Shown here in pieces: positions 24,505 to 40,222 of a DNA stretch of 64,000 nt. Numbering within the stretch: the stretch's first letter is position 1; each line of letters opens with the position of its first letter. Origin of the DNA: Wenjunlia vitaminophila DSM 41686 (GTDB lineage Bacteria; Actinomycetota; Actinomycetes; Streptomycetales; Streptomycetaceae); contig NZ_KB904656.1 in NCBI RefSeq assembly GCF_000380165.1, forward strand, positions 1-64,000. Direction: 5' to 3'. The notes beneath the pieces are model-generated. The model was given only the letters and a program-made list of their open reading frames with translations. It searched no databases and was not told the origin of the DNA. Made by a program: the position numbers and the translations under genes.

Positions 24505-25941
24505 TCAGGCGGGGGAGACGGCCATCACCACGGCCTTGGGCTCGGTGAAGAACTCGCGGCTGAAGTTGCCCCCCTCACGACCCACGCCGGAGTCCCCGAC
24601 GCCACCGAACGGGGCGCGCAGGTCGCGGACGAAGAAGCAGTTGGCCCACACCGTGCCGGCCCTGAGCGCCGCGGAGACGCGGTGGGCGCGGGAGAGGTTC
24701 TCGGTGAAGACCATGGCGTTCAGTCCGTACGGCGTGTCGTTGGCGGCGGCGACCGCCTCGGCCTCGGTGTCGAACGGGGTGACGGTGACCACCGGGCCGA
24801 AGACCTCCTCGCGGCGGACCCGGGCGGTGGGCGGCGCGCCGGTGATGACGGTGGGGCGCACCACCCAGCCGTCGCCGGTGCCGCCGGTGACCACGGTGCC
24901 GCCGTCGGCCTCCGCGCCGTCGAGGTAGGAGCGGACCTTCTGGTAGTGCTCGTGCGAGGCGAGCGGACCGAGCTGGGTGACCGGGTCCTTGGGGTCGCCG
25001 ATGGTCAGGGCGTCGGCCGCGGCGGTGAACCGGGCCAGGAACTCGTCGTGGACCTCGCGCTGCACGAACAGCCGGCTGCCGGCGAGGCACACCTGCCCGG
25101 CGTTGTGGAAGATCGCGCGGATCGACCAGGCGACGGCGGAGTCCAGGTCCGCGTCGGCGAAGACCAGGTTGGCGCCCTTGCCGCCCAGTTCGAGGCTGAC
25201 CGGGGTCAGGTTGGCGGCTGCCGCCCTGGCGATGGCGCGGCCGGTGCCGGACTCCCCGGTGAAGGTGATGCGGTCCACCCGGGGGTCGGTGGTCAGTGCC
25301 TCACCGGCCGACCCGGGACCGTACCCGTGCACCACGTTGAGCACCCCGGGCGGCATCCCGGCCTCGAGGGCGAGCCTGGCCAGGATGGCGGCCGACGCCG
25401 GGGTGTCCTCCGCCGGCTTGAGCACCACGGTGTTCCCCCAGGCGAGGGCCGGCGCCACCTTCCACGTCTCCAGCATCAGCGGGAAGTTCCACGGGGCGAT
25501 GGCGGCGACCACCCCGGCCGCCTCGAACCGGGTGTAGGCGTGGTGGCCGCTGTCCATCGGCAGGGCGTCCCCGGCCGCGAGCCGGGCGTGGTCGGCGAAG
25601 AAACGGAAGTTGAGCGCCGAGCGCGGAACGTCCTTGCTGGTGCTGTCGGCGATCGGCTTGCCCATGTCGGTGGTGTCCGCGAGCGCCAACTCGTCCCGGT
25701 GGGCCTCCATCAGGTCGGCGAGCCGGTGCAGCACCGCCCCGCGTTCGGCGAAGCCCATCCGCGGCCACGGGCCCTCGTCGAAGGCGCGGCGGGCCGCGGC
25801 CACCGCGGCGCCGGCCTCCTCGGCGCCGCCGAGGGCCACCTCGGCCCACGGCTCCCTGGTCCAGGGATCGGTGGTGGCGAACCGGGCGCCGTCGCCGGAC
25901 TCCGTCTCCTTACCGTCAATGAGGTGCGGTATGAGGTCCAT
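24505..25941 (-). CDS. NAD-dependent 2-hydroxymuconate/2-aminomuconate semialdehyde dehydrogenase
   Basis: A 478-residue aldehyde dehydrogenase. It has the oxyanion Asn in PWNFPL, the cofactor lysine in VLKPAEDTP, Glu251 in LELGGKG, and nucleophile Cys285 in NAGQVCLAG. The final motif FGGVGDSGVGREGG is typical of the DmpC/XylG/AmnC/PraB subgroup, which oxidises ring-cleavage semialdehydes to the diacid. It is the last gene of the operon and its start overlaps the tautomerase gene, whose product uses the next intermediate. The precise substrate (hydroxy or amino form) cannot be read from sequence. Confidence 0.9.
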   Translation of the reverse strand: MDLIPHLIDGKETESGDGARFATTDPWTREPWAEVALGGAEEAGAAVAAARRAFDEGPWPRMGFAERGAVLHRLADLMEAHRDELALADTTDMGKPIADSTSKDVPRSALNFRFFADHARLAAGDALPMDSGHHAYTRFEAAGVVAAIAPWNFPLMLETWKVAPALAWGNTVVLKPAEDTPASAAILARLALEAGMPPGVLNVVHGYGPGSAGEALTTDPRVDRITFTGESGTGRAIARAAAANLTPVSLELGGKGANLVFADADLDSAVAWSIRAIFHNAGQVCLAGSRLFVQREVHDEFLARFTAAADALTIGDPKDPVTQLGPLASHEHYQKVRSYLDGAEADGGTVVTGGTGDGWVVRPTVITGAPPTARVRREEVFGPVVTVTPFDTEAEAVAAANDTPYGLNAMVFTENLSRAHRVSAALRAGTVWANCFFVRDLRAPFGGVGDSGVGREGGNFSREFFTEPKAVVMAVSPA

Positions 25942-26134
25942 GGTGCTCTCTTCTCTCCTCGATGGTCATGTCCCCGGCGGCCCAGTGCGTGGCGGGCACC
26001 TCGCGGAGGATGACGCGGATGCTCGACCGCGGTGCGCCCAGCGCGGTCTCGGCGGCCTCGGTGAGCCCGGTGATCAGCGCACGGAGCTGTTCGGGTGCGC
26101 GTCCCTCGACCAGGGACACCTCAATCAGAGGCAT
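25916..26134 (-). CDS. 4-oxalocrotonate (2-hydroxymuconate) tautomerase
   Basis: A 72-residue member of the tautomerase superfamily. After removal of Met, Pro1 of PLIEVSLVEG is the catalytic base. Arg residues in the middle part (SSIRVILREVPATHWAAG) match the 4-OT pattern. It converts 2-hydroxymuconate to 4-oxalocrotonate between the dehydrogenase and decarboxylase steps. It overlaps the dehydrogenase gene by 26 nt and follows the isochorismatase-family gene by 21 nt. Confidence 0.88.
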   Translation of the reverse strand: MPLIEVSLVEGRAPEQLRALITGLTEAAETALGAPRSSIRVILREVPATHWAAGDMTIEERREHHGPHTAPH

Positions 26135-26155: not shown

Positions 26156-26806
26156 TCAGGTGGTGTGGTGGTCGGCTGGTCGGGCGGCCGGGCGCTGGCG
26201 GACCGTCCGGGCCGCGCGGCCCGCGAGCACGTCCACCGCGGCGTCACCCGGCACCACCTCGGCGAACACGGTGCCCATCAGCCGCAGGCTGTTGCGGTGG
26301 AGGTCCTCCACGTACCCGGCGACGGCGTCCGCGGCGACCACCGCCCGCAGGTCGCGGAAGAACGCGTCCCGGACGGTGGACTCCACGCAGAAGTCCGTGC
26401 GTACCCCCGCGACCACGAGCGTCCCCACGCCCAACTCACCCAGCAGCGCCGCCAGGTCGGTGCGGTGGAAGGCGCTGAACCTGGGCTTGGTGACCCGGTG
26501 GTCCTCCGGCCTGCGGTCCAGGCCGGCGAGCGGCTGGGCGCCCCAGGTCCCGCGCCGCAGTCCGCGGGTGCGCAGGAACGGGCTGCGCTCGGCGAGCAGC
26601 CCGACGCTGGCGTCGTCCGGCCACTCCATGTCCACCCAGATGACCGGCCTGTGGTGGGCGCGGGCCGCCGCGACCAGGGCGTTGATCCGGTCCACCAGTG
26701 CGTCCGGGTCGGCGACCCGCAGCCCGGCGGCGGCGAACACGCCGTCCGGGTGGCAGTAGTCGTTCTGCACGTCGATGACGAGCAGGGCGGTGTCGTTCGT
26801 GGTCAT
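26156..26806 (-). CDS. Isochorismatase-family cysteine hydrolase (amidohydrolase)
   Basis: A 216-residue protein with a complete Asp-Lys-Cys triad: Asp12 (VIDVQNDY), Lys107 (VTKPRFSAF) and Cys140 (GVRTDFCVES). Family members hydrolyse amides (N-carbamoylsarcosine, maleamate, nicotinamide, biuret) or vinyl ethers. The Asp-Tyr after Asp12 and the TDFCVE box favour an amidase. It overlaps the GntR gene by 4 nt within the aromatic operon, so it probably releases ammonia or an amine from the substrate or an intermediate. No matching step exists in the standard protocatechuate pathway, which is the point of interest. Confidence 0.88.
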   Translation of the reverse strand: MTTNDTALLVIDVQNDYCHPDGVFAAAGLRVADPDALVDRINALVAAARAHHRPVIWVDMEWPDDASVGLLAERSPFLRTRGLRRGTWGAQPLAGLDRRPEDHRVTKPRFSAFHRTDLAALLGELGVGTLVVAGVRTDFCVESTVRDAFFRDLRAVVAADAVAGYVEDLHRNSLRLMGTVFAEVVPGDAAVDVLAGRAARTVRQRPAARPADHHTT

Positions 26807-27516
26807 CCGGCCTCCCGGCGCGCGACGGTCAGTGAGAGGTGGGCGGCCAGGGCCCGGTTCAGCCGCTCGGCGTCGCCGGCGGCGATCGCCTCGACCAACT
26901 CGCGGTGGACCGCGGGTCCCTCGGGGTCGTTGCGGGCCGGGTCGTCGGCGGTGACGCCCCGGAGCCTGCTCTCCACGTACTCCAACAGGGAGACGTAGGT
27001 GTGCCTGAGGATCTGGTTGGGGGTGATCTCCGCGATCCGCCGGTGCAGCGCCCAGTTCGCCGCCAGGTAGTCCGCGGTGGACTGCCCGCGGGGGGCCATG
27101 GCCGCGGCGAGGCCGCGCAGTTCGGCGACGTCGGCATCGGTGCGGTGACGCATCGCCTCCTGGGCGACCAGCGGTTCCAGGGTGTCCCGGACGACGAGGC
27201 AGTCGGAGACGGACACCGAGTCGCCGCTGAGTTCCAGCATCTTGCGGCCCAGTCGGACCAGTGCGGGCGGCGAGGCGACGAAGACGCCGCCCTTCACGCC
27301 CGGCCGGACGGAGATGGTGCCGCGGGACACCAGGAGCCTGACCGACTCGTTGAACGTGGCCGCCGCCACGTCGAACTCCCGCCGCAGGCTCTCCTTGGTG
27401 CCCAGGCGGTGGCCGCTGCGCAGGGCCTGCTCGGAGATCCGTGCCTCGATGCGCTTGGCCACCGCCTCGGCCCGCGACGACCGCCGCAGCTCGTCCGTCG
27501 CTCCTTCGGTGCTCAT
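26803..27516 (-). CDS. GntR/FadR-type (FCD) transcriptional regulator inside the aromatic operon
   Basis: A 237-residue regulator. The winged helix-turn-helix occupies residues about 15-80 (SRAEAVAKRIEARISEQALRSGHRLGTKESLRREFDVAAATFNESVRLL) with a wing (GTISVRPGVKGGVFV). The C-terminal helical FCD domain holds the usual metal/ligand residues (DCLVVRDTLEP; NWALHRRI; VHRELVEAI). It overlaps the genes on both sides by 4 nt, so it is co-transcribed and would report on an intermediate of the pathway it belongs to. No operator was identified with confidence. Confidence 0.9.
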   Translation of the reverse strand: MSTEGATDELRRSSRAEAVAKRIEARISEQALRSGHRLGTKESLRREFDVAAATFNESVRLLVSRGTISVRPGVKGGVFVASPPALVRLGRKMLELSGDSVSVSDCLVVRDTLEPLVAQEAMRHRTDADVAELRGLAAAMAPRGQSTADYLAANWALHRRIAEITPNQILRHTYVSLLEYVESRLRGVTADDPARNDPEGPAVHRELVEAIAAGDAERLNRALAAHLSLTVARREAG

Positions 27517-28667
27517 GTCTGCTGCCCTTCGCCGTGATGGGGTGGGACCGCGAGAGTAGCGACCGGGTCACGGCCGCTGGCGTCCGACGGCGCGGTGGCG
27601 CCCGGCCCGGACCCTCCGGGGTCCCCCGACGCCAACACCAGCCCCGGAAGGAGCACTTGGGCGTTGCCGCCGAGGATCGCGGCCTCCTCGTCCTCGCCCA
27701 GGCCGATGCCGCGGACGGTCCGCAGCGGATCGCTGTCCACCAGGTCGAAGGGGGCGTCGGTGCCCAGCAGCACGTTGGCCGCGGTCACGTCCTCGACCAG
27801 CCGGCCGAGGACCTTGCTGTCGAACACCGCGGTGTCGTAGCGCAGGCGACGCAGGTAGTCGGTCGGTGCGTTCGCCACCACGCGGGTCACCGGCTTGCGG
27901 TGCCAGCCCAGGTCGAGCCTGGCGCCCACGGCGGGCGCGCAGCCCCCGCCGTGGGCCAGGCACAGCACCAGGTCGTGCCGGTCGAGCACCCCGCCGAAGA
28001 TCAGCCGGGAGGTGGCGAGCGCCGTCTCCACCGGGTAGCCGAGGAGCTGGACCAGGTGGTAGTCGGCGAGCCGGTCCCGGGAGGAGACCCGGCTGGGGTG
28101 GAGCAGGGTGAAGCACCGGCGTTCGGCCAGCGCCGCCCACAGTTCCTCGTTGACCGGGTGGTCAAGCTCGCGCCGCCCTCCGAAGGAGCCCATGGTGGCG
28201 CCGACCATGCCGAGCTGGTCCAGGCAGCGGGCCAGTTCCTCGACCGCGCCGGGCACGCCGACGGGGACGGTGGCGAGACCGGAGAGTCGGCCGCCCGAGG
28301 CGGCGGTGAACTCGGCGACGGCGTCGTTGGAACGGCGGGTGACGTCCAGCACCAGCCGCTCGTCAGCCGACTCGGACGCGAAGACGAACGGTGGGGCCGC
28401 CACCACCTGGTGGTCGACGCCGGAACGCCGCAACTGCTCCAGCCGCCGCGCCAGGTCGTACTGCTCCGGCGCGAGCGGCACCGGCGCGCCCGGCGGCAAC
28501 CCGCACAGCTCCGGATCGAGGGTGAGCACGTTGCGGCCGGCCCCGGACAGGTCGGCGCGGCCCTCCCGTTCGAGCTGCCGGAGGAAGGGCATCGGCATGG
28601 CGTGGGTGTGGATGTCGATCACCGGTGCGGGTGGCACCGGGGTGTCGTCCGTCAACTGCTCACTCAC
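27513..28667 (-). CDS. ACMSD-like amidohydrolase-family decarboxylase
   Basis: A 384-residue member of the amidohydrolase_2 group. The metal motif H20-T-H22 is followed by an Arg- and His-containing core (WAALAERRCFTLLHPSR; LCLAHGGGCAPA) and a final metal Asp in LLGTDAPFD. These features match aminocarboxymuconate-semialdehyde decarboxylase and the PraH-type decarboxylases, which remove the ring-derived carboxylate after extradiol cleavage. The GTG start overlaps the end of the LigA-like gene by 8 nt. Its presence points to a carboxylated ring substrate cleaved next to the carboxyl-bearing side (2,3-type cleavage). The Ala/Gly-rich tail after residue 345 is unusual. Confidence 0.85.
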   Translation of the reverse strand: MSEQLTDDTPVPPAPVIDIHTHAMPMPFLRQLEREGRADLSGAGRNVLTLDPELCGLPPGAPVPLAPEQYDLARRLEQLRRSGVDHQVVAAPPFVFASESADERLVLDVTRRSNDAVAEFTAASGGRLSGLATVPVGVPGAVEELARCLDQLGMVGATMGSFGGRRELDHPVNEELWAALAERRCFTLLHPSRVSSRDRLADYHLVQLLGYPVETALATSRLIFGGVLDRHDLVLCLAHGGGCAPAVGARLDLGWHRKPVTRVVANAPTDYLRRLRYDTAVFDSKVLGRLVEDVTAANVLLGTDAPFDLVDSDPLRTVRGIGLGEDEEAAILGGNAQVLLPGLVLASGDPGGSGPGATAPSDASGRDPVATLAVPPHHGEGQQT

Positions 28668-28989
28668 CGCGCTCCGCCATGTAGCTCTCGTACTGGTCGC
28701 CCAGCAGCGACCTGATCAGCTCGGTCGCGGCCTGCGAGGTCCCTGCCTTCTCCCCCGTGCCGTGGATCAGGCGGGCGAGCTGGGAGAGCAGGTAGGGATG
28801 GAGGCCGAGTTCGTGGAGGCGGCGGAAGTCCCGCTCCCTGATCGCGGTCCGCTCCTCGTCGCTGAGCGGGTAGTCGGCCAGCACCTGGGCCTCGTCGGCC
28901 TCGAAACGGGCCCGTAGGTCGCGGTCCCACTTCAGGTCCTGCACCAGGTCGTTGGTCCGCAGCAGTGGGTTGAAACGGTCGAGCGCCAT
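28660..28989 (-). CDS. Extradiol dioxygenase small (alpha, LigA-like) subunit
   Basis: A 109-residue all-helical protein of the LigA type. It has the conserved segment ADYPLSDEERTAIRERDFRRLHELGLHPYLLSQLARL, which caps the active site of class III extradiol dioxygenases. An AAGGA site precedes the ATG. It lies 47 nt after the catalytic subunit gene and overlaps the decarboxylase gene, matching the use of its product. Alone it has no catalytic residues. Confidence 0.87.
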   Translation of the reverse strand: MALDRFNPLLRTNDLVQDLKWDRDLRARFEADEAQVLADYPLSDEERTAIRERDFRRLHELGLHPYLLSQLARLIHGTGEKAGTSQAATELIRSLLGDQYESYMAERGE

Positions 28990-29036
28990 GGGGTTCGTCC
29001 TTCCGTGTGGTTGAGAGCGGGCGCCGGTGGACTGGG

Positions 29037-29885
29037 TCAGGAGAGGTCCCACTGGACGGCGCCGACGCCGCAGCGCCACTGGTCCACCGCGGAGTAGCCG
29101 AGCGAGGTGCAGGGGCGCGGACCGATCGCACCCATCACGACCACCCAGGACAGCAACTCGGCGGTGCCGCCGGAGCCGGCCTCCTCCATCCGCTCGAAGG
29201 TCGCCTCGGCCAGGACGCGCTCGTGGTCGCCGGCCACCAGCAGGTCGAGCCACCACCGGTCGAACTCCTCGTCGATCTCCAGGTAGCGGGGGCCCCCGGG
29301 CTCGTGGCTGAGCCCGCCGGAGCCGAGCAGTCCCACCCGGAGGCCGTCGGGCAGGGCGGTGCGGATCGCGGTGCCCAGGGCCTGGCCGAAGGCGTAGCAG
29401 GCGCGCTCGTCGGGGACCGGGGGAACCGTGCAGTTCTGGAGCACCGGCACCACGGCCACCCCGGTTCCGGGCAGGTCAGCCATCGCGCTGGGGACCGAGA
29501 GGTTGTCGTCGAACCGCAGGTTTTCCCGCACGGCACGGACGGTGCGGCCGCTGTCCCGCACCTGGTCGTGGAGGGTCGCGGCGACGTCGGGGGCGCCCGG
29601 CAGGGCGTAGTCGGCGACGCGCAGCCACGGCTTGAACCACTCGTCGGGCCCGGTGTGCCGCTCGGCGAGACCGAAGGTGAAGTCGGCGTAGTCGTTCACC
29701 CTGGCGTTGGCCACGTGGTCGTTGCCGATGACCAGGAGCACGTCCGTGCGCGAGTCGAGCACGGCCTGGTGGATCGCGTCGTAGGCCCGTCTGACGATGC
29801 GCCGGTCCTCGTCGGGGGCCTTGTCGAACCACCCGGTGAGGCCGGGCGTGTGGCTCGCGGCCAGGGCCAGGCTGATCTCTGCCAT
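29037..29885 (-). CDS. Class III extradiol dioxygenase catalytic (beta, LigB-like) subunit
   Basis: A 282-residue protein with the LigB iron ligands. His12 lies in SHTPG and His57 in GNDHVAN; a Glu from the C-terminal region would complete the triad. A further His in GSGGLSHEPGG is the usual acid/base. With the adjacent LigA-like subunit it forms a non-haem iron(II) enzyme that opens a catechol or aminophenol ring next to the ortho-hydroxyl (amino) pair. LigAB-type enzymes act on protocatechuate, gallate or 2-aminophenol. The downstream genes argue against the 4,5-cleavage pathway because no LigC/LigI/LigJ/LigK set is present. Confidence 0.88.
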   Translation of the reverse strand: MAEISLALAASHTPGLTGWFDKAPDEDRRIVRRAYDAIHQAVLDSRTDVLLVIGNDHVANARVNDYADFTFGLAERHTGPDEWFKPWLRVADYALPGAPDVAATLHDQVRDSGRTVRAVRENLRFDDNLSVPSAMADLPGTGVAVVPVLQNCTVPPVPDERACYAFGQALGTAIRTALPDGLRVGLLGSGGLSHEPGGPRYLEIDEEFDRWWLDLLVAGDHERVLAEATFERMEEAGSGGTAELLSWVVVMGAIGPRPCTSLGYSAVDQWRCGVGAVQWDLS

Positions 29886-29936
29886 GTCTCCTCCGCTACC
29901 TTCCGCTGAACGATGTGATGGATGTGGTTGATGGCG

Positions 29937-30848
29937 TCAGCCGCGCTCGAGCCGCTCGACGATGGCCGCCGCGGCCTGTTCCGCCGACAGCAGGTGGGAC
30001 CGGTGCCCCTCGGCCGCTCCGGCCGCCGCCGGGTCACCGAAGTAGCCGAGCGGGGTGGTGCGCCGCGCGTCGTCGTGCCCCCGGCGCCAGACGGCCAGTT
30101 CCTCCGGCCCGAGGTCGGTGGGCGGCAGCGTGGCGCGCACCTCGTCCCGGACGAGGTCGGGGTGGCAGTGCAGCATCATCGACGTCTCCCAGCGCCCGGC
30201 GTGCACGTCGAGACCGCCGCCGGGGGCGTCGCCGTCCGGGGCCGCCGCGGTGGAGGACGAGAACGCCGCACCGCCGTCCACCGGGCCGGTGGCGTGCAGC
30301 GTCAGGCAGGGGTCGTCGGGGGACAGGCCGAGGCGCCCGGCCAGCTCCGGTTCCATCACGAAGCTCGCGTCGATCCCGGTCCGTTCGCGGGCGGCCCGCA
30401 CCCCGGCGTGCACGGTCCGGTTGTGCAGGGCGTCGCCGTGGCCGCTGAAGCAGAAGACGTGCCGGAACCCGTCGCGCGCCATGCCGGCCATCAGGTCGGC
30501 GACGACCTCGGTCATCAGCTCGGGGCGGATGCTGTAGGAGGCGGGGAAGCTGCCGGAGACCACGTTGATGCCCCAGTAGTACGGCGGCACGATCAGCGCC
30601 CGGACCCCACGCTCCGCCAACAGCCCGCGCACCTCCCGCAGCCTGGCGCTGGGCAGGTAGACGTCGGTGCCGGTGGGCAGGTGCGGCCCGTGCTGTTCGA
30701 TCACGCCGAACGCCCACAGCAGGACCGCGCCGTCCAGGGCCGCCCGCTCCACCTCGTACCAGGTCAGCTCCGCGATGGTGTCGTGGAAGACGTCGGCGCG
30801 GGCGCCGGTCCCGGTCGTCGGGTCGGCGCCGGCCGTACCCGCGCTCAC
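29937..30848 (-). CDS. Creatininase-family amidohydrolase
   Basis: A 303-residue protein with the metal-binding set of the creatininase family: Glu51 and His53 (GVIEQHGPHLPTGTD, with Asp62), GHGDALHN, and HAGRWETS with its Glu. Members open cyclic or linear amides (creatinine, a FAPy compound in archaeal flavin synthesis) or cleave peptide bonds (mycofactocin maturation). The GTG start overlaps the importer ATPase stop by 4 nt and the gene precedes the dioxygenase genes. It likely acts on the imported compound before ring cleavage, possibly an amide. This assignment of order is inference from position. Confidence 0.87.
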   Translation of the reverse strand: MSAGTAGADPTTGTGARADVFHDTIAELTWYEVERAALDGAVLLWAFGVIEQHGPHLPTGTDVYLPSARLREVRGLLAERGVRALIVPPYYWGINVVSGSFPASYSIRPELMTEVVADLMAGMARDGFRHVFCFSGHGDALHNRTVHAGVRAARERTGIDASFVMEPELAGRLGLSPDDPCLTLHATGPVDGGAAFSSSTAAAPDGDAPGGGLDVHAGRWETSMMLHCHPDLVRDEVRATLPPTDLGPEELAVWRRGHDDARRTTPLGYFGDPAAAGAAEGHRSHLLSAEQAAAAIVERLERG

Positions 30849-31687
30849 GCCGACGCTCCCGCCGCGGGTGCGGTGTGGAACGTCTTGGCCCGCTGCACCT
30901 GCTCGTAGACGTGGGCGCGCAACTCGGCGAAGCGGGGCAGCGCACGGGTGCTCAACTGTTCGCGTTCCGCGGGCAGGTCCACGGCGACGTCTTCCATGAC
31001 CACTGTTGGTGACCCGGAGAGCACCAGCACCCGCTGCCCCAGGTACACCGCCTCGTCGATGTCGTGGGTGACGAACAGCACCGTCATCCCCAGGTTCCGC
31101 CACAGCGAGCGGGTGAGGTCCTCCAGTTCGGCCCTGGTCTGGGCGTCCACGGCGGCGAAGGGCTCGTCCATCAGCAGCACGTCGGGCTCGTAGGCGATGG
31201 CCCGGGCGATCGCCACCCGCTGCTGCATGCCGCCGGAGAGCTGCCAGGGGTAGGCGTGCGGCACGTCCCTGAGCCCCACGGATTCCAGCGCCTCGGCGAC
31301 CAGCGCGGCACGGCGCGGCTTGGGTGTCCGTTTCTGCTTCAGCGGGAGTGCGATGTTGTCCGCGACCGTCATCCACGGGAAGAGGCTGCGGCCGTACTCC
31401 TGGAACACCACGGCCATGCCCGGCGGCGGCCCCTGCACCCGTGCCCCGCCGAGCCGCACCTCGCCCCCGGTGGGGGGCAGCAGACCGGCGATGCACTTGA
31501 GCAACGTCGTCTTGCCGGCGCCCGACGGGCCGACGATGCAGGCCAGCTCGCCCGTTCCGACGGAGAACGTCAGGTCCCGCACCGCCTCGACGGTCCGGCC
31601 CGAGCCGTAGTAGGTCTTCTGGACGCCCCGGACGTCGAGCAGGCCCGAGTCGGCGCGCACCGCGGATTTCACGTCCGTGCTGGTCAT
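30845..31687 (-). CDS. ABC transporter ATPase (taurine/nitrate type)
   Basis: A 280-residue ATPase with Walker A GPSGAGKTT, Q-loop (VFQEYGRSLFPWMT), signature LSGGMQQR, Walker B VLLMDEP and the switch His in THDID. The PW after the Q-loop is characteristic of TauB/SsuB/NrtD-like proteins. It overlaps both neighbouring genes by 4 nt and energises the two-permease importer of the aromatic cluster. Confidence 0.92.
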   Translation of the reverse strand: MTSTDVKSAVRADSGLLDVRGVQKTYYGSGRTVEAVRDLTFSVGTGELACIVGPSGAGKTTLLKCIAGLLPPTGGEVRLGGARVQGPPPGMAVVFQEYGRSLFPWMTVADNIALPLKQKRTPKPRRAALVAEALESVGLRDVPHAYPWQLSGGMQQRVAIARAIAYEPDVLLMDEPFAAVDAQTRAELEDLTRSLWRNLGMTVLFVTHDIDEAVYLGQRVLVLSGSPTVVMEDVAVDLPAEREQLSTRALPRFAELRAHVYEQVQRAKTFHTAPAAGASA

Positions 31688-32472
31688 TTCTCTCCCTTTT
31701 GCGATTGGCGGAGCCCGCGGTGCCAGTGCAGGACCCGGGACTCCAGGAGGCCGAAGAGCAGCGAGAGGGCGAAACCCAGCAGACCGAGCAGGAGGATGCC
31801 GCTCCACATCTCCGGGATGGCGAAGCTCCGTTGGAACTGGACGATGGCGAACCCGAGCCCGCTGGAGCTGGCGAACATCTCACTGATCACCATGAGGATG
31901 ATCGAGATGGACAGCGCCTGGCGCATGCCGGCCACGATCTGTGGGCTGGCCGCCGGCAGCACCAGCCGGCGCAGCCGGGCGGCGCCGGTGATCCCGTAGC
32001 AGCGCGCGGTGTCCGCCAGCACGTCGTCGATGGCGCGGACGCCCTCCACGGTGTTAAGCATCACCGGCCAGACGGAGCCGACGATGATGACGGTGATCTT
32101 CATGCTGTCCCCGATGCCGCTGAACAGCATCAGCACGGGGATCAGCACCGGCGGCGGAATGGCCCGGAAGAACTCCAACACGGGTTCGAGCAGGGCCCGC
32201 AGTTGGCGGTGCGAACCGAGCAACACGCCGAGCGTCACCCCGAGCACCACCGCACCGAGGTAGCCGACGGCCAGCCGCCAGAGGCTGGGCAGCACGTCGT
32301 CCACGATCCGGGAGGAGAACCAGGTCTCCCCGAAGGCGGAAAGGATCTCGTTGAGCGTGGGGTAGTAGAAGCTGTCGCTGCGCGCGGCGAAGAACCACCA
32401 CAGCGCGAGCAGCGCCGCGGGCAGTCCGAAGAGGTGGAGGAACGCCCTGGCTCCTGCCTTCAGCACGTTCAC
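31684..32472 (-). CDS. ABC transporter permease (taurine/nitrate type), second
   Basis: A 262-residue membrane protein with about six helices and the cytoplasmic coupling loop (DTARCYGITGAARLRRLVLPAASPQIVAGMR). It is of the SsuC/TauC type. It overlaps the other permease and the ATPase gene by 4 nt each. Having two different permeases in one operon suggests a heterodimeric channel. Confidence 0.9.
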   Translation of the reverse strand: MNVLKAGARAFLHLFGLPAALLALWWFFAARSDSFYYPTLNEILSAFGETWFSSRIVDDVLPSLWRLAVGYLGAVVLGVTLGVLLGSHRQLRALLEPVLEFFRAIPPPVLIPVLMLFSGIGDSMKITVIIVGSVWPVMLNTVEGVRAIDDVLADTARCYGITGAARLRRLVLPAASPQIVAGMRQALSISIILMVISEMFASSSGLGFAIVQFQRSFAIPEMWSGILLLGLLGFALSLLFGLLESRVLHWHRGLRQSQKGEK

Positions 32473-33308
32473 GTCACGGCCTCCGTCCGCACCGAGGTGT
32501 GCCAGGCGAGCACCCGCCGTTCCAGGGCACGGGCGGCCACGTTGACGCAGACCCCCAGCGCACCGGTCACGATCACCAACGCGTACATCTCCTCCACCGC
32601 GTTGCTCGACTGGGCCAGCGCGATCTCCTTCCCAATGCCCGGGCTACCGATGATCAACTGCGAGCTGATCGCCAGGATCAGCGCCACCGAGGCCGACAGC
32701 CGCACCCCGGTCATCAGGTACGGCAGGGCGGTCGGCCAGGTCACGTGCCTCAGCCGCGCCCACCGGGTGAACCGGTAACTCGCCGCGGTGTCCCTGGCCA
32801 CCGGGTCCACGTCCCGCACCCCGGCCAGCATCTGGAGCAGCACCGGCCACACCGCCGCGTACACCACGAGCAGCAGCGTGGACTCAAGACCGGTGCCGTA
32901 GACCAGGACCGCGAGCGGAACCAGCGCCACCGAGGGGATCGGCCGCAGGAACTCGATGGTCGACGCGGTGGCCCGGCGCAGCACCTCCACACTGCCGATC
33001 AGCAGGCCGAGCCCGGTGCCGACGCCGACGGCGATGGCCAGGCCGTAGCCCCAGCCCTCGGCGGTGTCCAGGAGCGCCTGCCAGAAGGACTCCTCGCCGG
33101 CCACACCGACCAGGGCGTCCGCGATCTCGCTGAACGGCGGCAGGTAGTCCGCGGAGACCACGCCGGTCCTCGGCAACACCTCCAACACCCCGGCCAGCAG
33201 CACCAGCCCGAGCAGGCCGAGCAGCGGTTCGGGAAGGGCGCCCGTCCGGGTGCGGGACCGGGGGTGGGGGGCCGGGGGCGGGCCGGCACGGCGCGGTTGA
33301 AGTGTCAC
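32469..33308 (-). CDS. ABC transporter permease (taurine/nitrate type), first
   Basis: A 279-residue permease starting at GTG 33308. A Pro/Arg-rich cytoplasmic head precedes six membrane segments. The coupling loop reads DTAASYRFTRWARLRHVTWPTALPYLMTGVR. It is homologous to, but clearly divergent from, its partner. It follows the binding-protein gene by 151 nt and is presumably in the same transcript. Confidence 0.9.
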   Translation of the reverse strand: MTLQPRRAGPPPAPHPRSRTRTGALPEPLLGLLGLVLLAGVLEVLPRTGVVSADYLPPFSEIADALVGVAGEESFWQALLDTAEGWGYGLAIAVGVGTGLGLLIGSVEVLRRATASTIEFLRPIPSVALVPLAVLVYGTGLESTLLLVVYAAVWPVLLQMLAGVRDVDPVARDTAASYRFTRWARLRHVTWPTALPYLMTGVRLSASVALILAISSQLIIGSPGIGKEIALAQSSNAVEEMYALVIVTGALGVCVNVAARALERRVLAWHTSVRTEAVT

Positions 33309-33459: not shown

Positions 33460-34443
33460 TCACTGGTCGAGCAGGGCGTCCAGGGGCTTGAGGTCGTCGA
33501 TCAGACCGGCGTCCACGGTCAACTTCGCGAGGTTCTCGATCTCGTCGCGGGAGGTGGTCGGGTCCCAGCCGGGCAGGGTGACCGCCGCGCTGACGCCCTC
33601 GTCGAGCTTGAGGTAGCTGTCGAGCGTGGCCCGGGCCTCGTCGGGGTGCTCCTCGGCGTACCGCAGCGACTTCTCCAGGGCGGTGGTGAACCGCTTGACC
33701 ACCTCGGGGTTGTCGGCCGCGTACCGCTCAGCGACGAACCAGCCGGCGAACGGCATCTGCTTGCCCATGGCCGCGTAGCTGACCGGCACCGGGTGCGCGC
33801 CCTGCTTCTCGGCGACCGTGACGAACGGCTCGCCCATCATGGCGGCGTCGACGTCACCGGACTTCAGGGCGGCCGGCATGTTCGGGATCGGCACCTCGAC
33901 CAGGGACACGTCGTCGCCCGGGACACCGCTCTTCTCGAGGCTGGTGCGGACGGCGACCTCGTTGATGCCCTTCAGGGTGTTGACGGCGATCTTCTTGCCG
34001 GCCAGGTCGGCCACGGTGTTGATGGAGGACGAACTGGTCATCAACTGACCCGAGCCGTCGTCGAGTTCGTCGTCGGAGGCCCGGGCGCCGACCGACACCA
34101 TCTTCACCGGCACGCCCTTGCTCTTGGCGACCAGCAGACTGACGATGTTGCTGTACCCGAACTGGTAGTCCCCGCTCACCACGGCCGGCACGATCGCGGC
34201 GCCGCCCTGGGACTCCTGGAGCTTGACGTTCAGGTTCTGCTCGGCGAAGAAGCCCTTCTTCACGCCGAGCTTGATCGGGGCTATGTCGATGATCGGGATC
34301 ACGCCGAGGGTGATGTCGGCCTTCCCCGAGCCGGACTTCCCACCGCCGCCGGAGTCCGACCCGCAGGCCGAAACGGCGGTGAGGGCGATGGCGGCTGCTG
34401 CTGCTGCGGCGGCGAGTCTGTGACGACGGTGGAAAACAGGCAT
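33460..34443 (-). CDS. Substrate-binding lipoprotein, NMT1/TauA type
   Basis: A 327-residue lipoprotein with signal peptide and lipobox ending at Cys27 (AVSAC), followed by a Gly/Ser-rich linker. The fold motifs (ADITLGVIPIIDIAPIKLGVKKGFFAEQNLNV; VVSGDYQFGYSNI) place it in the NMT1/SsuA/TauA group, which binds sulfonates, nitrate, pyrimidine precursors or aromatic acids such as phthalate. In this cluster it probably binds the aromatic growth substrate. A strong GAAGGAG site precedes the ATG. Confidence 0.9.
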   Translation of the reverse strand: MPVFHRRHRLAAAAAAAAIALTAVSACGSDSGGGGKSGSGKADITLGVIPIIDIAPIKLGVKKGFFAEQNLNVKLQESQGGAAIVPAVVSGDYQFGYSNIVSLLVAKSKGVPVKMVSVGARASDDELDDGSGQLMTSSSSINTVADLAGKKIAVNTLKGINEVAVRTSLEKSGVPGDDVSLVEVPIPNMPAALKSGDVDAAMMGEPFVTVAEKQGAHPVPVSYAAMGKQMPFAGWFVAERYAADNPEVVKRFTTALEKSLRYAEEHPDEARATLDSYLKLDEGVSAAVTLPGWDPTTSRDEIENLAKLTVDAGLIDDLKPLDALLDQ

Positions 34444-34753: not shown

Positions 34754-35542
34754 TCAGCCCACCGCGGTGGTCAGGGACAGGCTGCCCAGGGTGTCGAAGT
34801 CAACGGTGATCGTGCGGCCCGGCTCGGCGAGGACCGCGTCGGTGAGACCGCCGGTCAGCACGGTCCACCCCGCCTCGATCGCCAGGCCGCGCCGGGCCAG
34901 GTCGTTGGCGGCCAGCGCCAGGGCCGCCGCCGGGTGACCCAGGACCGCCGTGCCGGTGGCCTGGTCGACGGGGTCGCCGTCGATGCCCAGCCGGCACCCC
35001 TCGGCGGCCAGGTCCAGGCCGTGGGGCGGTACGGCGGTCGAGGAGACCACGAACCGGCAGGAGGAGGCGTTGTCCGCCACCACGTCCCCCAGCGCGAAGC
35101 TGAAGTCCCGGTAGCGACTGTCGATCACCTCGAACCCGGCGTGCACGGAGGCGACCGCGGCCAGCGCCCGCTCCGGCGTCACGTCCGGGCCGGCCAGACG
35201 CTCGCCCATGGTGAAGGCGATCTCCGGCTCCACCCGGGGGTGGATGGTCTCGGCGAGCGGGACGGGCGCCCCTTCGGGCAGCACCATGGCGTCCGTGAGC
35301 CAGCCGGTCAACGGCGAGTCCACACCCATCCGTCGCTGCTTGGCCCGCGAGGTGAGGCCGAGTTTGACCCCGACCACCCGCTCGCCCGCGTCCACCTTGC
35401 GCGCCAGCAGCGCGTCCTGCACCCGGTACGCCGTCCCGAGGTCCAGCGCCGGCCACTGGTCGGTGATCCGACCGCCGTCCTGACGTTCCCGCTCCCTGCG
35501 GAGCAGTTCGTCAACGGCCGTGTCGATCGTCCACTCAGCCAT
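34754..35542 (-). CDS. 4-oxalocrotonate decarboxylase (DmpH/XylI/PraD type)
   Basis: A 262-residue member of the hydratase/decarboxylase family. Compared with the two branches as I recall them, it has the decarboxylase signature: VVGVKLGLTSRAKQRRMGV, DSRYRDFSFALGDVVADNASSCRFV, VLGHPAAALALAANDLARRG and TGGLTDAV. It would convert 4-oxalocrotonate to 2-hydroxypenta-2,4-dienoate with magnesium bound by the Glu residues of VEPEI. A GGAAGG site precedes the ATG. It has its own AT-rich promoter region upstream and is separated from the aldolase gene by 317 nt. Confidence 0.87.
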   Translation of the reverse strand: MAEWTIDTAVDELLRRERERQDGGRITDQWPALDLGTAYRVQDALLARKVDAGERVVGVKLGLTSRAKQRRMGVDSPLTGWLTDAMVLPEGAPVPLAETIHPRVEPEIAFTMGERLAGPDVTPERALAAVASVHAGFEVIDSRYRDFSFALGDVVADNASSCRFVVSSTAVPPHGLDLAAEGCRLGIDGDPVDQATGTAVLGHPAAALALAANDLARRGLAIEAGWTVLTGGLTDAVLAEPGRTITVDFDTLGSLSLTTAVG

Positions 35543-35859
35543 GCGGTTCTTTCCTTCCGGCTTGCTGCGGCGACTGGCCGCGTCGATGGGTCCACCGGCC
35601 CCCTGAACGGCGGGACCCCGAGGTCGGCGTGGTCCGGGGCTCACTGACGAGCCGGGGACCTCACCCTCGTAAGGCCGGAAGGGGACGGATTGACGCGGCC
35701 GGAGCCGCCGCCTGCGACGACGTGAACACCCGCGCCTCCAGGTCGAACGGTGCGCCAGTCGTTGCAGTATGGAACATGAAAATAGTGCAATCAATAGATT
35801 GATAGCGATGAGTTTGGCGAACCCCGCGCCGCCCACCGGCGAGGGCGCGCCGCGGAGGT
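35543..35859. promoter_or_regulatory. Regulatory gap between aldolase and decarboxylase genes
   Basis: 317 nt without a gene. An AT-rich patch (35760-35815) stands out sharply from the GC-rich surroundings and holds the promoter described next. The rest (35543-35759) would be a leader of about 220 nt for the decarboxylase transcript; I see no clear riboswitch structure. Confidence 0.5.
35761..35803 (-). promoter_or_regulatory. Sigma-70-type promoter with overlapping palindromes
   Basis: On the minus strand TTGATT and CATACT are spaced by 17 nt, a good housekeeping promoter for the decarboxylase gene. ATCAATAGATTGAT (35790-35803) is a perfect 6-bp inverted repeat over the -35. GTTGCAGTATGGAAC (35761-35775) is an IclR-like imperfect palindrome over the -10. 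Both are candidate operators. Confidence 0.5.
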
Positions 35860-36939
35860 TCACTGCCCGGGGGCGTCCGCGGTCCCGACGGTCGCCGCCG
35901 CGACACGGGACCGGTCTCCCTGTTCCACCAGGTCCAGCGCGACGTCCATGATCATGTCTTCCTGGCCGCCGACCATGCCGCGCCGCCCCACCTCGACCAG
36001 GATGCTGCGGGTGTCCAGTCCCACCTGGCGGGCGGCGGCCTCGGCGTGGCGCAGGAAGCTGGAGTAGACCCCGGCGTAGCCCAGCGTCAGCGTCTCCCGG
36101 TCCACCCTGACCTCGCGGTCCTGCAGGGGGCGCACCAGGTCGTCGGCGGCGTCCATCAGCGGGAACAGGTCGCAGCCGTGCTGCCAGCCCATCAGGTCGG
36201 CCACGGCGATGAACGCCTCCAGCGGGCAGTTGCCCGCCCCCGCCCCCTGACCGGCGAGTGAGGCGTCCACCCGGGTGACCCCGTTCTCCACGGCCACCAC
36301 GGTGTTGGCCACACCGAGCGCCAGGTTGTGGTGCGCGTGGATGCCGAGTTCCGTGGAGGGTGCCAGGACGTCGCGGTAGGCCCGCAGGCGGTCGCGCACC
36401 CCGTCCATGGTCAGGCGGCCCCCGGAGTCGGTGACGTACACGCAGGTGGCCCCGTACGACTCCATCAGCTTGGCCTGCCGGGCGAGTTCCTCCGGGGCGG
36501 CCATGTGCGACATCATCAGGAACCCCGCGACGTCCATGCCCAGGTCCCGTGCCGCGGCGATGTGCTGGGCGGCGATGTCGGCCTCGGTGCAGTGGGTGGC
36601 CACCCGGACCGAGCGGATGCCCAGGGAGTGCGCCCGCCTCAGGTCGTGCAGGGTACCGATGCCGGGCAGCAGCAGCGTGGTCGGGACCGCCCGGCGGGTG
36701 ACGTCCGCGACGGCCTCGATCCACTCCCAGTCGGTGTGGGCGCCCACGCCGTAGGTGATGCTGGACCCGGCCAGGCCGTCGCCGTGGGCGATCTCGATAG
36801 CGGACACCCCGGCCGCGTCGAGCGCGGCGGCGATGGCCCGGGCCTGGTCCACGGTGTAACGGTGTCTGACGGCGTGCATGCCGTCCCGCAGCGTCACGTC
36901 CTGGACGTACAGCGCGGGAGCGTTGCTTGACCCGGTCAT
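35860..36939 (-). CDS. 4-hydroxy-2-oxovalerate aldolase (DmpG type)
   Basis: A 359-residue TIM-barrel aldolase. The N-terminal [13 protein letters not shown] holds the Arg-Asp pair and the catalytic His. The metal site GIHAHHN lies in the middle, and [20 protein letters not shown] and the helical C-terminal dimerisation region follow. It splits 4-hydroxy-2-oxovalerate into pyruvate and acetaldehyde. Its start overlaps the acetaldehyde dehydrogenase stop by 4 nt, fitting the known channelling complex of the two enzymes. Confidence 0.94.
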
Positions 36940-37904
36940 CGGACGGCCACCTTCCCGGAGCGGTGCGCGGCGATGCGCTCGGCGGTGCGCAGCGCGGCCG
37001 AGGTCATGATGTCGAGGTTCCCCGCGTAGCTGGGGAGGTAGTGGGCGGCGCCGGCGACCTCGAGGAACACGGACACCTTCAGGGCGGGACCGCCCGTGGC
37101 GCCGGCAGGTAGCAGCCGCCGCAGCGGATCGTCGTCAGGAACCGGGGTGAACTGCACCCGTTGTTTGAGGCGGTAACCGGGGACGTAGCCGGAGACGTGG
37201 TCCACCATGGCCTCGACCGAGGCGCGCACGGCCTCCCGGTCGCAGTCGGAGACCAGGCAGTAGACGGTGTCACGCATGATCAACGGAGGTTCCGCGGGGT
37301 TGAGCACGATGATGGCCTTGCCCCGCGCGGCGCCGCCGACCCGTTCCAGCGCGGACGCGGTGGTCTCCGTGAACTCGTCGATGTTGGCGCGGGTACCGGG
37401 GCCGGCCGAGCGGGAGGCGATGGACGCCACGATCTCCGCGTAGTGCACCGGCGTGACGGCTGAGACCGCGGCGACCACCGGGATGGTGGCCTGACCGCCG
37501 CAGGTCACCATGTTCACGTTCGGGGCGTCCAGGTGCGCGTCGCCGTTGACCGGGGGCACCACGTAGGGGCCCAACGCGGCCGGGGTGAGGTCGACGAGGA
37601 CCCGTCCCCGCGGGCGCAGCACCTCCTCGTGGCGCTGGTGGGCGCCGGCGGAGGTGGCGTCGAAGACGATCTCCACCTCGGCGAACTCGTCCATCGCGAC
37701 CAGGCCGTCCACACCGGCGTGGGTCGTGGCGATCCCCAGGCGGCGGGCCCTGGCCAGCCCGTCGGAGTCCGGGTCGATCCCGGCCATCGCGACGACCCGG
37801 AGGCCCTCCGAGAGCCGCAGCACCTTGATCATGAGGTCGGTGCCGATGTTGCCCGAGCCGATGACCGCGACCGCGGTCCGTCCGCTGGGTCCTGTGGCGT
37901 TCAT
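36936..37904 (-). CDS. Acetaldehyde dehydrogenase, acylating (DmpF type)
   Basis: A 322-residue enzyme with the NAD-binding GSGNIG (16-21), catalytic Cys135 in [12 protein letters not shown] and the dimerisation region [17 protein letters not shown]. It turns acetaldehyde and CoA into acetyl-CoA, the last step of the meta pathway. It overlaps the hydratase gene upstream and the aldolase gene downstream by 4 nt each. Confidence 0.94.
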
Positions 37905-38734
37905 CGCCGGCCTCCCTGGTCCTGGTCGTCGGTGGCGTGCGGGGCGAAGCCGACCCGCACGGAGCCGAGCCCGTCGATGTGGGCCTCGAACGCGTCCCCG
38001 GGTGAGGCCGCGGCCATCGGCCCCAGCGCGCCGGTCAGCACGACGTCCCCGGCGCGCAGCGGGTCCCCCACGGCGGCCAGGGTGGAGGCCAGCCAGACGG
38101 CCGCGTTCAGCGGACTGCCCAGGCAGTCCCGGCCGGACCCCCGCGAGACCAGGTCGCCGTTCCGGTCCAGGGTCATCCGGACGTCGCGCAGGTCGATCGA
38201 GGTGAGGGGCACGGGTGTGCCGCCGAGGACGAACAGGCCCGACGAGGCGTTGTCGGCCACCGTGTCCACCAGGCTGATGTCCCAGTCGGCGATCCGGCTG
38301 TCAACGACCTCCAGTGCGGGCAGCGCGAACTCCACCGCCCTGAGCACGTCCGCCGCGGTGGTCCCCCGGTGCGGCAGGTCCGCCCCCAGGACCAGGGCGA
38401 CCTCGGCCTCGACCTTCGGCTGGAGGAGCCGTCCGCCGGGGACCACCCCGCCGTCGAGCACGGCCATGTCGGAGAGCAGGGCCCCGTAGTCGGGCTGGTC
38501 CACCCCGAGCTGCCGCTGCACGGCCGGAGAGGTCAGGCCGATCTTGCGGCCCACCACCCGGTGCCCCCGGGCCACCCGCCGCTGGACGTTGACCCGTTGC
38601 ACGGCGTAGGCCGCCGCGACGTCCGCGGGCGCGAACCGGTCACGGACAGGGGAGCAGGGAACGCCGGTCTCGGCTGCCCGGGCGAGGGCCTCGGCCGCCG
38701 CCCGGACCGGGTCGGTCGGTTCCGTGGCGGTCAT
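37901..38734 (-). CDS. 2-hydroxypenta-2,4-dienoate (vinylpyruvate) hydratase (DmpE/MhpD type)
   Basis: A 277-residue member of the hydratase branch: [79 protein letters not shown] and TGALGPM. These match DmpE-like sequences rather than the decarboxylase paralogue at 34754. It adds water to the dienoate to give 4-hydroxy-2-oxovalerate. It is the first gene of the operon and diverges from the IclR gene. The ribosome-binding site is weak. Confidence 0.9.
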
Positions 38735-38889
38735 GGGGACCGCCGGTGGGTCGGGAGGGGGCGGATGCGGGACGTGGACACGCGGGACCTCCGGGAGCTG
38801 GGTGTGGGGGTGGGCGCGTCCGACCGGTGGGAGCGCGCCGGGTCCTTCGGGTATAGACGCCGCGCTGCGCCTGGGCCAAACTTCGTTCC
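38735..38889. promoter_or_regulatory. Divergent promoter region, hydratase operon and IclR gene
   Basis: 155 nt between divergent genes. A TATAGA at 38852-38857 is a plausible -10 for the IclR gene, placing its transcript start about 25 nt before the ATG. The region must also hold the promoter of the hydratase-dehydrogenase-aldolase operon. Confidence 0.5.
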
Positions 38890-38901
38890 ATGACACGGAA
38901 C
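38885..38901. promoter_or_regulatory. Palindrome GTTCC-N7-GGAAC over IclR start codon
   Basis: A perfect 5-bp inverted repeat brackets the ATG at 38890. It may be an autoregulatory IclR operator; the decarboxylase promoter carries a related GTTGC-N5-GGAAC. Confidence 0.4.
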
Positions 38902-39639
38902 AGCTCCACCGGCAACATGCTAGACAAATCGGTATCACTGCTGGAGTGTTTCCGTGATCCCGGCCAGTCGTACCGCCTAGCGGACCTCACCGCGCACACC
39001 GGGCTGTCCAAGACCACGGTGCACCGGCTGGCCGCCGACCTGGTGCGGCTCGGACTGCTCGACCGGCACGGGGACACCTACCAGCTCGGCGGGAAGCTCT
39101 TCGAACTCGGCATGCTGGTGCCGCGGCGCCTGGACCTGCGGGAGACGGCCCTGCCGTTCCTCCAGGACCTGTTCGAAGCCACCAGGGAGACCGTCCACCT
39201 GGGAATCAGGGAGGGCCACGAGGTGGTGTACGTGGAGCGGATACACGGCCACGACGCACTGGTCCTGCCCTCCCGCGTCGGCGGCCGTCTGCCGCTGAGC
39301 TGCACCGGGGTGGGCAAGGCGCTGTTGGCGTTCGCCGGCCAGGACCTCGTCGAAGGGGTGCTCGCCGCCCCGCTCCCGCGGCTGACCCCGTACTCGCTGA
39401 CCGACCCCGCCCGGCTGCGCACCGCCGTCGAACAGGCCCAGGTCGCCGGCCTCGCCTACGAGGAACAGGAGGCGGTCCTCGGCGTGAGCTGCATCGCGGC
39501 GCCCGTGTTCGCCGGGGGTGCGGCGGTGGCCGCGCTGTCCGTCGCCGTCCCCGTCAGCCGCTACCAGCCGGGGCGCCTCGCCCCGGCCGTGCGCACCGCG
39601 GCGCTCGGTCTGTCCCGGGCCCTGCGCGGGGCGGCCTGA
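38890..39639 (+). CDS. IclR-family transcriptional regulator of aromatic catabolism
   Basis: A 249-residue protein. The winged helix-turn-helix lies at residues about 10-65 ([47 protein letters not shown]). The IclR effector domain follows ([48 protein letters not shown]). IclR relatives such as PcaU, PobR and MhpR control aromatic pathways in response to the substrate. It diverges from the hydratase operon and most likely controls it and itself. Confidence 0.92.
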
Positions 39640-39679: not shown

Positions 39680-39856
39680 TCGAGGCCGTCCGCGGACGGG
39701 GGTAAGGACCGTGGATGTCGGCCGAACCCGACAAACCCTGCCTACTCGCCTTTACACCTCGGCTGGGGCTGACGAACGATCGGGTGGACGCTACCGGCTG
39801 CACCCACCGTGAACTCCAGCGATGACCCGTGGCCGCCTACCGCAAGGGAACCGGGA

Positions 39857-40222
39857 ATGAGCCGCTTCGAGCCTATCTGGGACAGTTTCTGGACCGATCT
39901 CCACGAATCCCCGGGGGCATCGCCCTGGGACGTGGACCCGAACTACGTTGCGCACGCTCACCTGGATCTGTTCGGCAGTGTCCTCGATCCGTCCCTGCCC
40001 GTCATCGACGTCGGCTGTGGGGACGGCGCGCAGACCGCCGCGCTCGCCCGTCACTTCGACCGGGTCATCGGTGTGGACGTCATGGCGGACGCCGTTCCGA
40101 GCTGGGACCGCACAGCGATGATGTTCCACGTCTCGAACCGGACGAGGTCGGCCGTCAAGCGCGGGGACGACGCGGCCCCGGTGCCGGGCATGGGGGGAAC
40201 CGATGCTCGACGTGTTCGGTGA
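39857..40222 (+). pseudogene. Truncated class I methyltransferase
   Basis: ATG 39857 with an AAGGGA site opens a 121-codon frame. The first ~85 residues are a normal methyltransferase N-terminus (FEPIWDSFWTDLHESPGASPWDVDPNYVAHAHLDLF) with motif I VIDVGCGDGAQTAAL and the acidic IGVDV. After this the sequence changes to unrelated residues and stops at 40222, overlapping the P450 start. The remaining two-thirds of the domain (motifs II-VI) are missing, so the gene is probably inactive. The break lies near 40090-40110. Confidence 0.65.

Follow-up and report, generated by a model that had tools for sequence, protein, structure and literature searches.

A conserved gene module pairing a divergent LigAB-type dioxygenase with amide hydrolases points to meta-cleavage of a nitrogen-containing aromatic

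The DNA analysed here (the window) comprises 64,000 nucleotides of Wenjunlia vitaminophila DSM 41686, positions 1 to 64,000 of contig NZ_KB904656.1 (assembly GCF_000380165.1). It carries a minus-strand operon of the ring-cleavage type whose genes, read 5' to 3', encode a hydratase, an acetaldehyde dehydrogenase, an aldolase, a 4-oxalocrotonate decarboxylase-like protein, the binding protein, two permeases and ATPase of an ABC transporter, a creatininase-family metal amidohydrolase (CREA), the dioxygenase subunits LigB and LigA, an ACMSD-like decarboxylase, a GntR regulator, an isochorismatase-family cysteine hydrolase (ISOC), a 4-oxalocrotonate tautomerase (4-OT) and an HMSDH-like aldehyde dehydrogenase. 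All coordinates given below for these genes refer to the minus strand.

An initial sequence-only reading of the window had singled out ISOC and CREA as hydrolases of unrelated families within the ring-cleavage operon, and both the Pfam assignments and the numbering of the catalytic residues bore this out. ISOC (26156..26806; 216 residues; PF00857, 141 bits) is RutB-like and possesses the triad Asp12/Lys107/Cys140, which is intact in 49 of 50 LigAB-linked homologues; RutB is its closest solved relative, and its score against the RutB equivalog TIGR03614 is 99 bits where the cut-off is 378. CREA (29937..30848; 303 residues; PF02633, 165 bits) has Glu51, His53 and Asp62, as had been named, and also His137 and Asp139; it scored 72.8 bits against the creatininase equivalog (cut-off 235). 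The metal site formed by Glu51, His53, Asp62 and His137 is kept in 26/26 linked creatininase homologues and the motif His137-Gly-Asp139 in 24 of them, and the linked creatininases make up a subfamily that is conserved at LigAB-linked loci. Both hydrolase genes had also been said to overlap pathway genes by 4 nucleotides. The overlaps are real and involve operon genes, but the neighbours are the GntR/FCD regulator (26803..27516; PF00392 and PF07729), whose stop overlaps the ATGA at the start of ISOC, and the ABC transporter ATPase (30845..31690), whose stop overlaps the GTGA at the start of CREA, rather than LigAB. Uncounted in that reading was a third amidohydrolase-fold protein of the operon, the ACMSD-like enzyme.

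The dioxygenase consists of a catalytic subunit, LigB (29037..29885; PF02900), and a small subunit, LigA (28660..28989; PF07746, 48 bits), and was the sole ring-cleavage dioxygenase identified in the operon. Alignment of LigB to LigAB (1b4u) and DesB for residue mapping, with counts by column, showed that the Fe ligands His12, His57 and Glu243 (equivalent to His12/His61/Glu242) are invariant in 72/72 aligned LigB sequences; the second catalytic histidine, the base His194, is invariant too. The position aligned with His127 of LigAB, however, is Asp in the window and in all 68 members of the clade to which the window LigB belongs, while it is His in most LigB outside that clade. In DesB the corresponding residue, His124, is essential, the Phe mutant being inactive, and forms a hydrogen bond with OH(4), the equatorial hydroxyl of the substrate; LigAB His127 and MhpB His115 are given as its counterparts in that study (PMC3962378). 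LigA scored 20.8 bits against a cut-off of 108.6 (TIGR02792) and LigB about 100 bits where the protocatechuate 4,5-dioxygenase models call for close to 300. Glu occupies position 127 (D-E-N) in a few LigB that fall outside the clade, at L027 8992-9831 and in two of the control loci (L003-L020/L108-L126), and these are possibly a sister variant of the Asp clade.

The ACMSD-like protein (27513..28667; Amidohydro_2 family, PF04909) keeps the metal motifs HTH, HP, AHGGG and GTD, and ACMSD accounts for each of its nine best matches among solved structures (E 4e-29 to 4e-28). The genes for the steps beyond a decarboxylation of the ACMSD type are present as a full set: the HMSDH-like dehydrogenase (24505..25941; PF00171; best NCBIfam match TIGR03216, 532 bits, below the cut-off of 693), 4-OT (25916..26134; 72 residues, beginning MPLIEVSLVEGR, assigned from sequence and translation and conserved in L023, L031, L032 and other loci), the 4-oxalocrotonate decarboxylase-like protein (34754..35560; DmpH-like; best NCBIfam match TIGR03218, 247 bits, below the cut-off of 350), 4-hydroxy-2-oxovalerate aldolase (35860..36939; TIGR03217, 556 bits, cut-off 286), acylating acetaldehyde dehydrogenase (36936..37904; homologous to L021 genes annotated as acetylating acetaldehyde dehydrogenase) and 2-keto-4-pentenoate hydratase (37901..38740; NF008461, 355 bits, cut-off 350). 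Neither LigC (4-carboxy-2-hydroxymuconate semialdehyde dehydrogenase) nor LigI (2-pyrone-4,6-dicarboxylate hydrolase) was identified in the operon at 24.5-38.9 kb, the part of the genome covered by this comparison. The lower genes are thus those of the 2-hydroxymuconate-semialdehyde/4-oxalocrotonate route, with an ACMSD-type decarboxylase as its point of entry, and not those of the protocatechuate 4,5-pathway; together with the low LigAB scores and the loss of His127, this makes the protocatechuate framing of the sequence-only reading wrong in part. In the opa cluster the same lower genes stand behind an ACMSD-family decarboxylase, and a carboxy-2-hydroxymuconate semialdehyde is the demonstrated substrate of the decarboxylase OpaD (PMC6362003). 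A Woeseiaceae locus (L088) has LigA-LigB-ACMSD-ISOC followed by HMSDH and 4-OT, and given that its dehydrogenase passes the HMSDH cut-off (824 bits, cut-off 693), the module of the ACMSD-bearing members most likely ends in 2-hydroxymuconate semialdehyde.

The remaining operon genes encode the transporter, with permeases at 31684..32472 and 32469..33308 and an NMT1/SsuA-type substrate-binding lipoprotein at 33460..34443 (PF09084, 112 bits); the ATPase and both permeases were recognized as open reading frames in conserved synteny. The IclR-type gene that diverges from the operon head (38890..39639, plus strand) has a coding GC pattern, and its family was assigned by reading the sequence, with no library scan. 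Beyond it, at 39829-42390 on the plus strand, lie a frame resembling a cytochrome P450 and then a nucleoside-hydrolase-like protein.

The comparison across genomes was based on 83 loci with relatives of LigB, 80 of them retrieved when genome contigs were scanned with four aligned LigB proteins and the other three being L021, L022 and L023. Since one of the two scan seeds (FDDN[LVW]SVP) covered position 127, we checked for seed bias in the 23 loci that contain the other seed, which does not cover it, and found Asp127 in 23/23. LigA adjoins LigB in 78/83 relatives. The distance between ISOC and LigB is at most 6 kb in 48/83 loci, at most 1 kb in 33/83 and at most 400 bp in 28; CREA lies within 6 kb in 19/83. 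A formamidase, FmdA, non-homologous to ISOC, is found within 6 kb in 15/83, and the two occur together in only 2/83 (Fisher p = 0.0002, a figure that serves as a guide only, related loci not being independent). At least one of the three hydrolases is within 6 kb in 67/83. The co-occurrence is therefore not peculiar to this genome; had it been so, the proposal of the sequence-only reading would by its own terms have been refuted.

None of ISOC, FmdA or CREA was found at 37 control LigB loci outside the clade, each covered for about 1.5 kb on either side. Background rates were taken from family searches: the 6.43-Mb genome holds three isochorismatase-family (PF00857) genes and a single creatininase-family (PF02633) gene, and if isochorismatase genes were as frequent as in one Bradyrhizobium genome, which gave 12 hits in 7.8 Mb, chance would place one at about 2% of loci. 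The arrangement is moreover kept in other genera: gene content and gene order are unchanged, at 68-87% identity, in a different genus of the same family (genome G018, locus L023), and a syntenic cluster is present in Streptomyces, Actinomadura and Nocardia. The small number of family genes in the genome, the conserved arrangement and the 0/37 controls exclude a chance association. Three environmental-looking clusters (L086, L102 and L103) came from metagenome-assembled genomes filed under Bordetella parapertussis and Klebsiella pneumoniae, possibly mislabelled bins.

The window LigB falls within the clade of 68 aligned sequences, whose split from canonical LigB is fully supported. ISOC occurs in most branches of this clade; FmdA is nearly restricted to one branch, in which ISOC reappears (L047, L055, L063). 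Among the linked ISOC proteins two groups are well supported, one of 16 actinobacterial rows and the other of 33 linked proteobacterial rows, both nested in a larger group of less certain support. Given two ISOC lineages and FmdA, amide hydrolases were recruited to the Asp127-clade LigAB at least three times. The recurrence of unrelated amide hydrolases in what seems to be the same place is the strongest argument that it is the reaction that matters and not the protein.

Other hydrolases are found at loci that do not have CREA. A caprolactamase-like HyuAB lies directly ahead of LigB-LigA-FmdA in L049 (1000-7100), L050 (5674-12675) and L021 (10111-16179), from Gordonia, Janibacter and a Corynebacterium glutamicum plasmid; these loci are possibly a lactam-degrading version of the module. 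In L050 a BphD/HsaD-type C-C hydrolase follows. A metallo-beta-lactamase-fold protein lies near LigAB in two actinobacterial loci, L037 (7902-8846) and L035 (14628-15575), from Pseudonocardia and S. smaragdinus; its gene in L037 is flanked by those for the ABC ATPase and the binding protein, where CREA might be expected. In Bradyrhizobium-like genomes, at L041 (10018-10707) and the similar loci L042, L046 and L061, FmdA and LigAB are accompanied by a protein of the DUF1989 family (PF09347) and by genes for an ABC transporter of the branched-chain type. Four Defluviicoccus loci (L071, L072, L074, L075) have an Asp127-clade LigB with no detectable LigA, beside a 2-hydroxyacid dehydrogenase gene.

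A different set of neighbours appears at a few proteobacterial loci, where a 3-HAO-family cupin and RidA lie by LigAB (L079 8692-18908, L100 102-10831, L047 2-5623, L096 2530-5720 and L098 7820-10834). L079 and L100 also have a 4-hydroxybenzoate-3-monooxygenase-like enzyme and L079 has HpaH/HpaI, and the loci with the cupin and RidA resemble the 4-amino-3-hydroxybenzoate pathway of Bordetella sp. 10d. Open reading frame lists at this GC content include antisense shadows, and in L079 a family scan decided two RidA and 3-HAO calls. The 3-HAO, RidA and PobA neighbours had suggested that the clade as a whole follows an anthranilate-type route; this was dropped, only a few proteobacterial members having them. 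No 3-HAO cupin, AmnBA or RidA-type deaminase was identified among the window operon genes.

Given that the linkage extends well beyond this genome, we agree with the sequence-only reading that the hydrolases belong to the ring-cleavage module and that this is most simply explained by a substrate or intermediate that contains nitrogen. We put at roughly 60% the probability that the operon is a conserved module for the uptake and meta-cleavage of a nitrogen-containing aromatic, with ISOC or FmdA freeing ammonia from a primary amide. In such a pathway the ABC system would take up the aromatic, from which CREA would most likely open a cyclic amide, lactam or cyclic carbamate form, and the divergent two-subunit LigAB would open the ring. 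ISOC would release ammonia by hydrolysing a primary amide, borne either by the ring-cleavage product or by the precursor of that product, and the ACMSD-like enzyme would decarboxylate the resulting carboxy-2-hydroxymuconate semialdehyde to 2-hydroxymuconate semialdehyde, which HMSDH, 4-OT, the decarboxylase, hydratase, aldolase and acetaldehyde dehydrogenase would convert to pyruvate and acetyl-CoA.

Several points weigh against this proposal. The activity of every operon protein is predicted only, and the window HMSDH and 4-oxalocrotonate decarboxylase score under their equivalog cut-offs. No ISOC, FmdA or CREA lies within 6 kb of LigB in 16/83 relatives, some of which are on short contigs, and several members carry the 3-HAO cupin and RidA, another nitrogen route in the neighbourhood. 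The change of His127 to Asp might have a role other than amine binding. Finally, nearly all FmdA loci have no ACMSD-like gene, which argues that the members do not all share one substrate; substrates probably differ between branches of the LigB clade.

As to what the substrate might be, in 4,5-cleavage the C4 carbon turns into a carboxylate. With NH2 in place of OH at that position the same cleavage would give a carboxamide, and this would account for both Asp127 and the amidase. A tentative candidate is therefore an ortho-aminophenol carboxylate such as 3-amino-4-hydroxybenzoate, in which the amino group stands where the OH contacting His127 normally sits. Cleavage beside the amino carbon would give a carboxamide and not a carboxylate, so that an amidase would replace the usual enamine deaminase; 3-amino-4-hydroxybenzoate, if cut between C2 and C3, would after amide hydrolysis yield the 5-carboxy compound used by PraH-type decarboxylases. 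That LigAB opens an ortho-aminophenol on its amino side to a primary carboxamide, with Asp127 holding the amine and an isochorismatase- or formamidase-type amidase freeing the ammonia, is a speculative proposal, to which we assign a low probability.

Hydrolysis ahead of ring cleavage is almost as likely as hydrolysis after it. Here the imported compound would already bear an amide, as in a dihydroxybenzamide, an N-acyl or N-carbamoyl aminophenol, a lactam or a benzoxazolinone-type ring, and CREA and ISOC would free an ordinary catechol or aminophenol for LigAB, an explanation we rate as plausible although short of even odds. There is a precedent in the lumichrome operon, which was discovered by seeking multiple amidases beside a catechol dioxygenase and in which several hydrolases open the heterocycle before the dioxygenase acts (PMC12746152). 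The alternation of CREA, the caprolactamase-like HyuAB and the metallo-beta-lactamase near LigAB, all hydrolases of a cyclic-amide type, would fit a cyclic starting compound, and given that the lactonase-type enzyme BxdA degrades the benzoxazolinone MBOA (PMC11297187), the alternation of the metallo-beta-lactamase with CREA offers by analogy a lead, and only a lead, to a benzoxazolinone. Such an order of steps, however, leaves the change of the diol-contacting residue 127 in every member unexplained, and ISOC directly adjoins LigB in many operons. Cleavage of a pyridine diol by LigAB, with ISOC or FmdA hydrolysing the N-formyl or amide product as happens to NicX products in nicotinate breakdown, would suit the kinship of ISOC with RutB, and PydA, of the LigB family, is thought to cleave 3,4-dihydroxypyridine (PMC7356986). 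It is nevertheless improbable, given that the lower genes start from a C6 hydroxymuconate semialdehyde, which a ring of five carbons plus nitrogen cannot give directly, and that the PydA motifs DDHFENH and EWICGM are absent from the window LigB and from the loci that were searched for them.

The sequence-only reading had also suggested that one of the hydrolases stands in for RidA. With ISOC in that role, LigAB would yield a 2-aminomuconate-type enamine to be deaminated by ISOC. The ACMSD-like gene, the lack of RidA among the window operon genes and the four RidA-bearing relatives without ISOC (L091, L095, L096 and L100) are what might be expected of such a replacement. Isochorismatase-family enzymes, however, carry out amide hydrolysis rather than enamine hydrolysis, and the enzyme found in the place of ISOC is FmdA, an amidase. 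RidA and ISOC, moreover, occur independently, five of the nine RidA loci having ISOC (Fisher p = 1), and it is with the 3-HAO cupin that RidA pairs, likewise in five of the nine. The suggestion was thus not upheld, and we consider it unlikely. Least probable of all is that the hydrolases are passengers, kept near LigAB for reasons of transport or regulation and acting on unrelated compounds. It is true that ISOC and CREA overlap regulator and transporter genes and not LigAB, but a linkage that spans two phyla, with at least three recruitments of amide hydrolases and none in the 37 controls, speaks against it.

Our literature searches found nothing relevant on LigB with isochorismatase and creatininase or formamidase, and no paper describing the Asp127 clade. 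What emerges is a whole clade of LigAB, in Actinomycetota and Proteobacteria, that is tied to amide hydrolases and has dispensed with a histidine essential in the studied enzymes. The clade predicts that soil and marine bacteria have a so far unassigned route for aromatics that contain nitrogen. If amino-side cleavage of an aminophenol proved true, nitrogen removal would differ from that by 2-aminophenol 1,6-dioxygenase or 3-HAO followed by RidA, and the clade offers a direct bench test of whether ring cleavage itself can create an amide.

Compared with known systems, the window LigAB shares with protocatechuate 4,5-dioxygenase and the gallate dioxygenase DesB the two-subunit LigA/LigB architecture, the Fe ligands and the second catalytic histidine, and differs in having Asp for His127 and in LigA and LigB scores far under the equivalog cut-offs. 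ISOC has the Asp/Lys/Cys triad of the ureidoacrylate amidohydrolase RutB and related isochorismatase-family amidases, but is linked to LigAB and not to RutA, and scores far under the RutB cut-off. CREA likewise has the Glu/His/Asp/His metal ligands common to creatininase and MftE, but lies far under all equivalog cut-offs for these enzymes, and its linked members carry the distinct His137-Gly-Asp139 motif. The lum operon of Nocardioides simplex resembles the window in combining several amide-type hydrolases with a catechol dioxygenase in one operon, whereas neither a Rieske nor a molybdenum hydroxylase is present among the window operon genes, LumE is a single chain of 46 kDa, and the end route is another (PMC12746152). 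The opa/dhb pathway for 2,3-dihydroxybenzoate and the pra pathway for protocatechuate 2,3-cleavage are matched in the window at every gene from the ACMSD-family decarboxylase through acetaldehyde dehydrogenase (PMC6362003). Where opa has OpaC, a relative of DhbA, and pra has PraA, the only ring-cleavage dioxygenase identified in the window operon is LigAB, of type II. The window also shows no 2-hydroxymuconate semialdehyde hydrolase gene; and to the opa pathway, which as described in the passages used from PMC6362003 has no amide hydrolase, the window adds two, ISOC and CREA.

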